Shown here: positions 3,340 through 7,059 of the stretch, in pieces
Layout: every line of letters starts with the position of its first letter
Position numbering within the stretch: position 1 is the stretch's first letter
Assembly (NCBI GenBank): GCA_947313765.1
Contig: CAMZNQ010000027.1
Location: 1-8,244, forward strand
DNA from: an uncultured Sulfurovum sp.
GTDB taxonomy: Bacteria > Campylobacterota > Campylobacteria > Campylobacterales > Sulfurovaceae
Length of the DNA: 8,244 nucleotides
Reading direction: 5' to 3'
Made by a program: the position numbers and the translations under genes
Notes under the pieces: model-generated
The model's database searches: none
What the model saw: the letters and a program-made list of their open reading frames with translations, nothing else
What the model was told of the DNA's origin: nothing

Positions 3340-4899
3340 TTAAACTGTCTCTCGACTATCACAATTACGCTTCTTTAACATCCCCTCCATACTCAAATAA
3401 CTATTTAATGCACCAATATATGCCCTAGCAGATGCCAACATAGTGTCTATGTGTAAACCATGACCAATAATAGCAGGGTCTTTTTTATCAAATGCTACCT
3501 TTACAGTAACAGAAGCCAAAGCATCTTTACCCTCACTTACAGAATTAACTTTATAATCCAATAACTTTCCATCAAAACCTGAAATTCTATCAATAGTTTT
3601 AAAAATAGAATCAATTGTTCCCTCTCCAATTCCTGCTTCAAGAATCTCTTTACCATCTTTTCTAATTTTAACAACAGAACTTGGAGTTCCATCTGAAAAG
3701 TCCATCAACTGTAAAGAGACCAACTCATAAATTTGAGTAGCTTTAGTCATCTCATTTGTTACCAATGCTCTTAAATCATTATCATAAATATCTTTCTTCT
3801 TATCTGCCATAATCTTAAAACGTTCAAAAGATTTATTTAAAGCATCTAACTCTAAATTAAAGCCCAATTTTGCTAATTTATCTTTAAATGCTGCACGTCC
3901 AGAGTGTTTACCTAAAACTAATGTATCCTCTTTCATTAAACCAATACTCTCAGGACTCATAATCTCATACGTCTCACGATTTTTCAACATACCATCTTGA
4001 TGAATCCCACTCTCATGAGAAAAAGCATTCTTACCTACAATTGCTTTGTTGGGCTGTGGTTCAATACCTGTAACAGTTGCTATTAAACGACTTGCAGGGT
4101 AAATCTCTTTAGTGTTAATATTGGTGGTATAATTAGAGAAAACATCTTTTCTAGTCTTTAAACTCATAACAATCTCTTCCAATGCTGCATTTCCTGCACG
4201 CTCCCCTAAACCATTAATAGTACACTCAATCTGTCTTGCACCATTAACTACAGCCTCCAATGAGTTTGCAACCCCTAAGCCTAAATCATTATGGTTATGA
4301 ACAGAGATAATAGCTCTATCTTTTGTATAGTCACTCATGATTTTTACCATCTCACCAATCTCAAAAGGCAATCTAAAGCCTACTGTATCAGGTAAGTTAA
4401 TAGTAGATGCTCCTGCTTCTATAACAGCATCACTTATCTCTTTCATAAATCCAATATCTGAACGCCCTGCATCTTCACAGCTAAACTCGACATCATCTAC
4501 AAACTCTCTTGCATAGCTAACTGCTCTAACAGCTCGTTTTATAACTTCATCAGGAGTCATTTTTAACTTGTACTCCATGTGAATAGTAGAAGTGGCAATA
4601 AACGTATGAATTCTCTTCATCTTTGCCTTAGCTATCGCTTCTCCAGCTGATTTAATATCAGAATCAATTGCTCTTGCTAATGAACAGACTGTAGAGTTCT
4701 CAATGCGTTGTGCAATTTTAGATATGGCATCAAAGTCCCCTGGACTAGCTGCTGCAAACCCTGCTTCAATAATATCTACTCCCAATTTCTCTAACTGAAT
4801 GGCTATCTGAATCTTCTCTTCGGTGTTCATAGAAGCCCCTGGGCTTTGCTCACCATCTCTTAATGTTGTGTCAAATATTTTAATGGTTTCAATACTCAT
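3340..4899 (-). CDS. leuA: 2-isopropylmalate synthase
   Basis: A 519-residue, full-length enzyme of the first committed step of leucine synthesis: acetyl-CoA plus 2-oxoisovalerate gives 2-isopropylmalate, in the cytoplasm. The catalytic TIM barrel carries [13 protein letters not shown] (9-21), the metal-binding [13 protein letters not shown] (201-213), [14 protein letters not shown] (229-242) and [10 protein letters not shown] (294-303). The C-terminal LeuA dimer/regulatory domain (about 390-505, with [11 protein letters not shown] near 421 and [20 protein letters not shown] at 480-499) is present, so feedback inhibition by leucine is expected. The start is set by AAAAGGAA 6 nt before the ATG. 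leuB, leuC and leuD are not in the window. The gene stands alone, 222 bp after ftsH, with a leader that looks like an attenuator (a 23-codon Leu-containing ORF and a terminator-like hairpin), suggesting control by both transcription and enzyme feedback. Confidence 0.97.
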
Positions 4900-4920
4900 T
4901 ATATGTTCCTTTTATAGTGT

Positions 4921-4962
4921 AAAAAATATCTAATTCTATCTTAACTTTATAGAATAGAATTA
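4921..4962 (-). terminator. leuA: Terminator-like hairpin in the leuA leader (candidate attenuator)
   Basis: On the minus strand, TAATTCTAT (4962-4954) and ATAGAATTA (4939-4931) make a perfect 9-bp stem with a 14-nt loop, followed by GATA and T6 (4926-4921). A second register (4955-4949 with 4939-4933) is possible because ATTCTAT is partly repeated. The hairpin ends just before the leuA SD and comes after the leader ORF, exactly where an attenuator belongs. The stem is AT-rich and so weak. It could instead be an operator at the internal -10 box at 4963-4968. Confidence 0.5.
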
Positions 4963-4968
4963 ATTATA
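4963..4968 (-). promoter_or_regulatory. Possible second, leuA-proximal -10 box
   Basis: TATAAT on the minus strand, 63 nt before the leuA ATG, with the inverted repeat 4931-4962 directly downstream. It lacks the TGn extension found at the leader promoter. It is an alternative to the attenuator reading: a start here would bypass the leader ORF and leave the repeat as a repressor site at the start of transcription. Confidence 0.3.
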
Positions 4969-4996
4969 GTGTTGAAAATTTGTTGTAGTTGAAAAG

Positions 4997-5068
4997 TTAA
5001 TATGAGAGAATCAGAAGAGTAGTAGTATCTTTTTTAAAATATGTTGCGTTATTATGAATAGATTTCAT
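4997..5068 (-). CDS. Putative leuA leader peptide, 23 aa, with Thr3-Leu2-Ile-Leu
   Basis: ATG at 5068-5066 and TAA at 4999-4997 enclose 23 codons. The peptide begins MKSIHNNATYFKKD and ends TTTLLILSY. The SD AGGGGAG (5079-5073) lies 4 nt before the ATG and is stronger than that of leuA. A TGnTATAAT promoter (5101-5093) would place the start of transcription about 18 nt before the ATG. The codons ACT-ACT-ACT-CTT-CTG-ATT-CTC cluster Leu, Ile and Thr just before the stop. CTG and CTC should be uncommon Leu codons in DNA this AT-rich, as in known leader peptides. It lies 97 nt upstream of leuA, with a hairpin and T6 between. Reading it as a leucine/branched-chain attenuation leader is inference. 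A chance short ORF is the alternative, but the promoter and SD argue against that. Confidence 0.6.
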   Translation of the reverse strand: MKSIHNNATYFKKDTTTLLILSY

Positions 5069-5092
5069 ATATCTCCCCTATTATTTTTCACA

Positions 5093-5101
5093 ATTATAAC
5101 A
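5093..5101 (-). promoter_or_regulatory. Extended -10 promoter of the leuA leader
   Basis: On the minus strand, TGT followed by TATAAT (5098-5093) is a perfect TGnTATAAT element, the same form as the promoter at 48-56. It starts only 11 bp after the ftsH terminator stem and 25 nt before the leader ATG. Transcription would begin near 5086. Confidence 0.65.
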
Positions 5102-5111
5102 GAAGATTATT

Positions 5112-5137
5112 AAAAGAGGAGTTACACCTCCTCTTTT
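5112..5137 (-). terminator. ftsH: Terminator of the hisA-prmA-ftsH operon, overlapping the ftsH stop
   Basis: AAAAGAGGAG (5137-5128 on the minus strand) and CTCCTCTTTT (5121-5112) are perfect 10-bp arms around a 6-nt loop. The loop begins at 5127 and contains the ftsH TAA (5124-5122). The stem bottom supplies T4, followed by AATAAT. The last codons of ftsH (Lys-Lys-Glu-Glu) form the upstream arm. The A/T ends are symmetrical, so it may also work on the plus strand, where T6 follows. Confidence 0.75.
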
Positions 5138-7059
5138 TTAATATGAGCTAAACGAGACTCCATACCATTCTCCTCTTCAAACTCTTTAATAATTGATTGA
5201 ACTCTATCTCCCTCAATTACTTCGATATCTAAAAGAACAGCCGTCATATTTTCAATTGCTCCACTATACTCTTTAAGAGTCTTTTTAACAAATTCGTAAC
5301 GTTCGGTCAAGGTTGCTTTGATACTAGCATCAATATCTTGTGCCATCTTTTCACTATAATCATTTGATACCATTCCTCCACCAAGGAAAGAGCTTTGAGA
5401 ACGTGAAAGAACCATAAGCCCAGCTACATCACTCATTCCATATACAGAAATCATATCTTTTAATATTGCTGTTGCTCGGTCAAGGTCATTTCCTGCACCT
5501 GTACTAATCTCACCTAAAAATACCTCTTCAGCACCTCGTCCACCAAGAAGGACATCAATCTCTGCCATAAGCTCATATTTACGCTTTAAAAATCTATCTT
5601 CATCATCTGGTAGATGTAGTGTGTACCCTAATGCACCTAAACCTCTAGGGATAATGGATACTTTTGTAACTCTAGTTGAGCCTTTGGTTAACTCTGCCAT
5701 TAAAGCATGTCCACTCTCATGGTAAGCTACAATTCGTTTCTCAATATCAGAAACTTTTCTATTTTTTCTTTCAAGTCCTACAAAAGCTCTCTCTATTGCT
5801 TCCAATAGTTCATCTTGTGTAATTGTTTTTTTGTTACGTCTACCTGCTAAAAGTGCTGCCTCATTAATGATATTTGCTAAATCTGCACCTGCCATTCCTG
5901 CTGTCTGTTTTGCAACTACTTCCATGTCAATAGACTCATCAAGTTTAACATCTTTGGAATGAACCTCTAGGATTGCTAAACGACCTGCAAAGTCTGGTTT
6001 GTCTACTAATACTTGTCTATCAAAACGCCCTGCTCTAAGCAGTGCTGCATCAAGAGTTTCTGGTCGGTTTGTAGCTGCTAAAACAATGACTGGAGTATCT
6101 GTACCAAAACCATCCATCTCTGCTAGTAGTTGGTTTAGAGTCTGTTCACGTTCATCATTTCCACCCATTTGACCACCTGATGCACGGCTTTTTCCAATTG
6201 CATCAATCTCATCAATAAAAATAATAGATGGAGCTACTTTTTTAGCTTGTTCAAACAAATCACGAACACGACTTGCACCAACACCTACAAACATCTCTAT
6301 GAAGCTTGAACCACTAACAGAGAAGAATGGAACACCTGCTTCTCCTGCAACAGCTTTTGCTAAAAGTGTCTTTCCTGTACCTGGAGGTCCTACAAGTAGT
6401 AGACCTTTTGGAATTTTTGCACCAAGTTCAATGTATCGTTCTGGATATCTAAGGAAATCAACAATCTCAACAACTTCATCTTTTGCCTCTTGTACCCCTT
6501 GAACATCATCAAACTTAACATCTGGAGTCTCCATATTTATCATCTTGTCAGACTTTCCAGCACCTAAAATTCCACCCATTCCTTTTGACATCTTCTTAGC
6601 CAAAAACATCCAAATGGCAAAAAAGATTAAAATTGGGAGTAGACTAGAGATTAGTGTCTGAATAAATGGCTCTCCTACACGACCCTCATAAGTAATATTA
6701 TTATCCTCTAACATAGGAATTAACTTCTCATCAAATGCAGGAACATTTTGGGCTACATATCTTAGGTCTCCATTATTACTTATTGCTTCAATAGAAGAAG
6801 ATGTAATCTTTACAGACTTTACTTTACTCTCTTTTATATACTTTTTTATATCAGAGTACTTTACATGTTCAGTTTTTGTAATCTGATTATTGCCCATAAT
6901 ATTGTTTATGGACTCTTCATTTGTAAAAAGCTTTATAAGAATAATGACAACAAATGCAAAGATTCCAAATGCAAGAAATGGGTTATCATTAAAAAAATTA
7001 TTATTGTTGTTGTTATTATTATTGTTGTTGTTATTTTGATTACTATTTTGATTATTCAT
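5122..7059 (-). CDS. ftsH: ATP-dependent zinc metalloprotease FtsH
   Basis: A 645-residue, full-length inner-membrane AAA+ protease that degrades membrane and short-lived cytoplasmic proteins as a hexamer. Residues 9-21 are thirteen Asn in a row, part of an N-rich cytoplasmic tail. Membrane helices are at about 27-45 and 134-154, with a periplasmic segment between. The AAA module has Walker A GPPGTGKT (224-231), Walker [12 protein letters not shown] (279-289), and sensor and arginine-finger residues in AATNRPE (328-334) and LRAGRFDR (341-348). The protease domain has HESGH (H447, E448, H451) and the third zinc ligand D525 in [10 protein letters not shown]. All catalytic residues are present. 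It follows prmA by 22 nt. The SD is poor: AGGA lies 14 nt before the ATG, but the next Met (56) would remove the first membrane helix, so this start stands. A terminator overlaps the stop codon. Confidence 0.98.
7000..7035 (-). repeat. ftsH: Two exact 18-bp tandem copies encoding poly-Asn in FtsH
   Basis: The 18-bp unit reads ATTATTGTTGTTGTTATT on the plus strand and occurs at 7000-7017 and 7018-7035 without a mismatch. Each copy gives six Asn codons in the same AAT/AAC order, so the tract grew by duplication rather than by codon drift. Unequal copy number would add or remove six Asn in frame. Confidence 0.9.

Follow-up and report, generated by a model that had tools for sequence, protein, structure and literature searches.

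A leuA leader of the LeuL type in a Sulfurovum-like bacterium and the probable closure of its leucine-coding end over its own Shine-Dalgarno sequence

The short open reading frame (ORF) in front of leuA in DNA from an uncultured Sulfurovum sp. (a stretch of 8,244 nt, analysed whole and referred to here as the window) is a genuine leucine leader, of a kind already known as LeuL. It probably serves leucine attenuation by a self-lock, in which the leucine-coding end of the leader closes over the leader's own Shine-Dalgarno (SD) sequence and transcription is terminated by a hairpin, by Rho or by both; we would put the probability of this reading at about 0.6. Given that the Leu-coding end is predicted to lie on the leader's own SD, leucine shortage would be likely to open the leader and so to allow leuA to be expressed. 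The leader itself is known; new are the observations of a self-lock, of a hairpin put to two uses and of a tail poor in G.

All of the features considered lie on the reverse strand. On its upstream side the leader adjoins an ORF (5122..7059) that, to judge by its sequence, is presumably ftsH, an AAA protease with an HEXGH-type motif; the FtsH N-terminus (6990-7059) opens with an Asn-rich run (MNNQNSNQNNNNNNNNNNNNN). A 10-bp hairpin (5137-5128 with 5121-5112) spans the ftsH stop codon 10 nt ahead of the leader promoter, and is probably the end of the ftsH transcript and probably shields the leader from ftsH transcription. The leader transcript has an extended -10 promoter, P1 (TGTTATAAT, 5093..5101), with a predicted start at about 5088-5086. 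The leader ORF, leuL (4997..5068, ATG 5068-5066, stop 4999-4997), consists of 23 codons, MKSIHNNATYFKKDTTTLLILSY, ending in TTTLLILSY, with the regulatory codons CTT CTG ATT CTC at 5006..5017. Direct reading bore out the positions given in a preliminary description of this DNA for the promoter, the SD and the ORF. In both the MFE and the centroid fold the 5' strand of the lock (5072..5083), composed of UAAUA (5083-5079) and GGGAGA (5077-5072) with the leader SD lying within it, pairs with a 3' strand (4998..5009) composed of UCUCUC (5009-5004, with the last Leu codon) and UAUUA (5002-4998). The leader stop is followed by 51 nt that contain C and are free of G (4946..4996), a putative Rho-binding stretch, and this runs into a terminator-like hairpin, 3:4 (4931..4962; 4962-4953 with 4940-4931), recognised by folding and by covariation in relatives. 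A T6 run (4921..4926) ends the series 21 nt from the ATG of leuA (3340..4899; SD AAAGGA at 4912-4907), which has full-length matches to Campylobacterota loci and is presumably 2-isopropylmalate synthase. The hairpin and T6 run described earlier are both present; the stem has 10 bp, with a further 2 pairs inside it (-8.1 kcal/mol), and the T-run, as a correction, begins 4 nt past it; the hairpin region had also been placed correctly, but a -10-like box, TAGAAT (4933..4938), had to be added within its 3' arm, where it forms a predicted second leuA promoter, P2, with a start at about 4927. A simple promoter and terminator scan of the window gave nothing at the sites of the leader promoter or the hairpin, and an Rfam search gave three weak matches under the gathering score, none of them within 4900-5101 and none to a leader family.

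Taken alone, the window barely departs from chance in Leu count and folding. Its leader has three Leu in the last 12 residues (three Leu and one Ile in the last six), and at least three Leu in the last 12 are reached by shuffles in about 11 of 155 loci and by the reverse strand in 19 of 155; its two folds have z scores of -1.86 and -1.87 and were equalled by 13 and 11 of 200 shuffles. For this reason the upstream regions of other leuA loci were compared, the set being 167 Campylobacterota loci, 158 of them distinct and 155 with enough upstream sequence (L009, L022 and L200, with less than 150 nt upstream, were left out of the leader count). An SD-preceded ORF with at least four Leu in the last 12 residues was found in 98 of the 155, as against about 3.2 in dinucleotide shuffles and six on the reverse strand, and many relatives have leaders with 5-7 Leu in this stretch, so that the leucine leader before leuA suggested by the preliminary description is borne out as a conserved one. 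A looser rule yielded 118 leaders, or 114 without L018, L147, L154 and L177, in which the ORF calls were judged wrong or incomplete. The counts by the stricter rule are lower bounds, since leaders are visible by eye in L115, L120, L127, L134, L137 and L022 that were missed by the rule or cut. The window leader is identical to that of L111 at 13 of 23 residues and to that of L006 at 12 of 23, and it is this conservation that raises it above chance. A -10-like box 16-60 nt upstream of the leader start occurs in 104 of 114 leaders compared with 47.8 expected from shuffles. Seven loci of family f15 (L179, L180, L184-L186, L191 and L194) show no leader; in six of them TTGACA (TTGAAA in L184) and then a TATAAT-like box are found just before leuA.

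The name LeuL was given in C. jejuni by Porcelli et al. in 2013, with orthologues reported in most Epsilonproteobacteria possessing leucine genes (PMC3847290), and the earlier suggestion of possible novelty in the phylum has thus been overtaken. According to that account, LeuL lies before leuA, has 20-35 codons and carries several Leu near its C-terminus, its Leu codons are rare, stalling on them was proposed to cause antitermination, and the C. jejuni LeuL RNA ends shortly past the stop codon. The window ORF, too, is short, has an SD and immediately precedes leuA in the same orientation; it is 23 residues long with C-terminal Leu, and CTC and CTG make up only 5 and 4 of the 198 Leu codons in six window ORFs, the third codon, CTT, accounting for 41. 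The leader of L198 (genome G045), of 28 aa with five Leu at its end, fits the C. jejuni LeuL as published, and start-site peaks for LeuL appear in a C. jejuni Ribo-seq study of 2025 (PMC11955535). The accessible parts of these two publications describe no SD-to-Leu-codon pairing, no hairpin covariation and no second promoter; the word Rho is absent from the article proper of PMC3847290, and no paper on a Leu-codon lid over the leader's own SD in this phylum was seen in listings of the openly available literature.

Many leaders have an SD (AGGAGAG) whose complement is found in the Leu-codon end (NCU-CUC-CUG), and three sequence-based tests support the view that this pairing is under selection. 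Over 114 leaders the duplex between the SD and the 3' end was stronger in cognate than in swapped combinations (-11.56 versus -10.39 kcal/mol, z -6.5, 0 of 5000 permutations), as it was after thinning to 41 (z -4.8, 0/5000); inside the Sulfurovaceae the same test gave z -4.9 for 46 leaders and only -2.5 for 21 after thinning (46/5000), values from which relatedness among loci is only partly removed. Where bases outside the SD core face bases ahead of the Leu run, consecutive pairs were likewise more frequent in cognate combinations (1.93 versus 1.46, 0/5000, n = 113, L058 being omitted as it has no SD core), also when 98 distinct combinations were used (1.76 versus 1.38, 0/5000). The preference was weaker when all five positions were counted (2.75 versus 2.61, 43/5000; for distinct combinations 2.64 versus 2.55, 409/5000), and weak once SDs reading GGAGAG were set aside (55 distinct combinations), both in consecutive pairs (1.11 versus 0.86, 57/5000) and in total pairs (2.29 versus 2.27, 2228/5000). 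When codons were redrawn for the same peptides, mean SD pairing over the 114 leaders fell from 0.61 to 0.45, and 92 of them scored higher in their natural form than when redrawn (Wilcoxon p 4e-12). In 89 of 114 leaders the pairing of the SD with the leader end reaches at least 0.5, and the letters that pair differ between lineages, as in GGATAGA/TCTATCC, GGAGTGT/ACACTTC and GGAGCAG/CTGCTCC. The window SD pairs with the leader 3' end at 0.86 and 0.84 per nt in two computations, using only the last of its three Leu codons together with the stop region, a register 3' of the CTC-CTG usual in relatives. It is not an exceptional lock, its duplex (-10.4) being equalled by 33% of synonymous recodings, a test in which only 25 of 118 leaders (L018, L147, L154 and L177 still counted) fell below p = 0.05.

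Codon choice in the Leu run of the 114 leaders is almost wholly CUN (519 of 542 codons, with UUR in 23), compared with 60% UUR among the Leu codons of leuA. Of the 114 leaders, 95 have CTC or CTT at the first Leu position and 65 have CTG at the second; for Leu residues ahead of the run TTA or TTG is the usual choice (33 of 48), and NCT codons directly before the run match the SD pairing. The lock accounts for this order, with CUC or CUU mostly in first place and CUG in second, and for the frequent NCT before them. The later Leu codons of the run, which lie beyond the usual pairing, are CUN as well, so codon sensitivity to starvation has probably been selected in addition. The three Thr codons of the window, which the preliminary description had included in the signal, were rejected as such, the residue ahead of the run varying over 113 leaders (Ser 34, Thr 29, Ala 15, Asn 13, others 22).

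The hairpin behind the leader, predicted earlier from the window, is upheld by covariation in the Sulfurovaceae: for 46 distinct segments from 49 loci, cognate arms gave -8.73 against -6.41 for swapped arms (z -8.6; -6.9 without the CCGATT/AATCGG group). An exact complement of the own four-base inner arm was present in 25 of 46 segments compared with 76 of 1662 comparisons with other-arm segments; the inner arms AGAT, GGAT and GGGT alone gave 21 of 33 compared with 44 of 1155, and AGGT, CGGT and GTAT gave 3/9, 1/3 and 0/1. An RNAalifold consensus of the ungapped hairpin alignment yielded no structure, probably because spacings differ, and it was replaced by the swap test and the inner-arm counts for that reason. 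The hairpin set omits L027, L033, L053, L133 and L140, which have no box nearby; L022, L115 and L120 are in the covariation set and outside the stalled-ribosome folding, the SD and arm-3 swap and the T-run and box sets, whilst L012 and L131 were left out of the by-eye comparison of hairpin and box, and L205 duplicates L005. The T-run after the hairpin in 46 leader loci has at least five T in 22, four in six and at most three in 18. Examined as an intrinsic terminator, the window has a covarying hairpin and T6, but there is the 4-nt gap and there is the -10-like box in the arm.

It is this box that speaks against the hairpin being a plain terminator, as had been supposed. A G-preceded TANAAT box between leader and leuA occurs in 40 of 51 Sulfurovaceae leader loci where 2.6 would be expected, and GATATAAT occupies the same interval in 13 of 15 Arcobacter-type leaders (a type picked by the start of the peptide, not by taxonomy) where 0.1 would be expected. 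By eye, nine loci of the family that lack a leader (L004, L009, L010, L011, L014, L018, L021, L026 and L208) keep the box, mostly as TAAAAT; that of L018 is TAATAT and was scored as no box by the script. These loci are mostly without the covarying hairpin, the upstream stretch of L009 being short. Since the box lies in the arm and is kept where there is no leader, the 3:4 stretch probably does double duty as hairpin and second promoter. Were it mainly a second promoter for leuA, with the leader RNA of little influence, these box counts would be accounted for; however, covariation of the arms goes far beyond the needs of a -10 box, P1, the SD and the Leu codons are conserved, the excess of TANAAT is small in the leaders containing the peptide LPKIEIKN (11 of 28 compared with 6.1 expected), and the leader RNA itself has been seen in C. 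jejuni (PMC3847290), so that we regard this alternative as improbable. In L004 the leader and P1 have been lost between ftsH and leuA with the hairpin and P2 box retained, a natural leader deletion. Arcobacter-type loci (L050, L052, L160, L165, L181 and others) have a T-tract/A-tract dyad leading into GATATAAT between leader and leuA, which amounts to a second promoter with a hairpin-like spacer and no T-run behind it.

The attenuators of enterobacterial leu, thr and trp operons consist of a leader peptide with codons for the pathway amino acid followed by a hairpin with a U-run, and the window resembles them in both. In classical attenuation of the trp or leu type a ribosome stalled on the Leu codons lets an antiterminator block the 3:4 terminator; this would suit the CUN-biased regulatory codons, a 1:2-like helix, the covarying hairpin and the run of 6 or 7 T that is present in 10 of 14 hairpin loci (the window included) with a leuA segment of at least 86% identity, and in many relatives arm 3 does pair with the leader 5' part before arm 4 exists (mean 6.7 pairs, 5.0 of them in the SD part). 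However, folding predicts that 3:4 forms alike with a ribosome on the first Leu codon, summed pairing being 1.42 free and 1.36 stalled (mean of 46) and 1.87 in either case for the window, where arm 3 is almost without an upstream partner (0.6 pairs with the leader 5' part, 0.7 with the spacer). No cognate preference was found for 2:3 (z +1.7), that for 1:3 (z -1.9) falls to -0.1 on thinning, in 18 of 46 loci the hairpin is followed by three T at most, and LPKIEIKN-type leaders have, by eye, no comparable conserved hairpin. Constrained folding and swap tests revealed no antiterminator exclusive with the terminator in the window and none that was robust in relatives, and the classical switch of the preliminary description thus appears unlikely. 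The differences from the enterobacterial systems are accordingly that no antiterminator was found, that the leader SD and not a separate RNA segment partners the Leu-codon end, and that a long U-run is absent after the hairpin in many relatives.

A Leu-codon run that pairs with an SD does have a precedent in the actinobacterial LEU element, in which the partner is the SD of leuA and not, as here, that of the leader (PMC1262725). Translational control of that kind, with the Leu codons covering the leuA SD, is nevertheless very unlikely in the present case, as cognate and swapped combinations of Leu region and leuA SD differ little (-4.99 versus -5.13, z +1.1) and the pairing probability is 0.085, and 0.0 in the window. 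It is scarcely credible that the ORF arose by chance in a gap rich in A+T: by its Leu count and its folds the window, taken by itself, comes close to chance, but conservation and the pairing preference over 114 leaders speak against it, as does a C. jejuni counterpart with start-site peaks (PMC11955535).

The RNA behind the leader is of unusual composition. Within 30 nt past the leader stop G amounts to 4.0% and C to 21.8% (n = 110), whereas 77 other genes in these loci are followed by RNA with 17.1% G and 15.2% C (Mann-Whitney p 8e-21 and 2e-6, respectively). Rho sites are RNA almost free of G, and Rho is present in 30 of the 31 genomes searched, including that of the window. Where Rho controls a leader peptide, as in tnaC, the ORF gives way to RNA that contains C and little G, and an intrinsic terminator is not obligatory; the likeness lies in this arrangement, with Rho action here inferred from composition and from the presence of Rho. 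Such a tail, judged on composition, fits the leaders with no evident hairpin.

In other families 28 leaders contain LPKIEIKN or a close variant, a peptide absent from the leader of the window, and in these the lock is weaker (13 of 28 at 0.5 or more). Carriers of K-x-LPKIEIKN-x-LL include L028, L029, L042-L045, L051, L057, L059, L142, L144 and L198, among others. Synonymous change is free amongst them (median dN 0.15, dS 1.18; 132 of 378 pairs scorable). An exact degenerate search for LPKIEI[KR]N found one match each in 48 of 198 genomes, the reversed control pattern finding none, and by eye the match shared the strand of the leuA match and ended 64-118 nt ahead of it in 40 of 40 comparable genomes; the other eight of the 48, G208 (no leuA match listed) among them, fall outside the leuA comparison. 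Free synonymous change together with a single copy beside leuA suggests that purifying selection acts on the peptide itself in those families.

For the window, the self-lock may be pictured as follows. With leucine plentiful and its tRNA charged, the ribosome would complete the leader and depart, the lid formed by the 3' end of the ORF, Leu codons included, would shut over the SD, further ribosomes would not be loaded, and the bare transcript would be stopped by the hairpin (4962-4931), by Rho acting on the stretch poor in G, or by the two together. Under leucine shortage the ribosome would halt on the CUN codons and the lid could not shut; with the SD open, further ribosomes would keep entering and line up along the leader RNA, and polymerases would get through to leuA more often. 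We infer that the stalled ribosome would be what allows polymerase to pass; it counts against the mechanism that this ribosome neither gets to the hairpin nor covers the G-poor stretch. P2 would provide a basal supply of leader-free leuA mRNA.

A wider reading, which we put forward tentatively and consider rather less than probable, is that a self-lock without an antiterminator occurs across the phylum. The leucine-sensing codons would themselves form the anti-Shine-Dalgarno of the leader, one stretch of RNA serving as both sensor and lid, a starved ribosome would prop its own start site open, and the resulting queue of ribosomes would shield the transcript from Rho; the peptide of the sister families may arrest the ribosome as a nascent chain or act in trans. 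Whether the leader peptide itself has a function is a distinct question posed by the conserved LPKIEIKN. For a leader whose mechanism was proposed in 2013, the self-lock would offer a concrete and testable structure, and it would provide a way for a leucine sensor to work where the usual antiterminator was not found.
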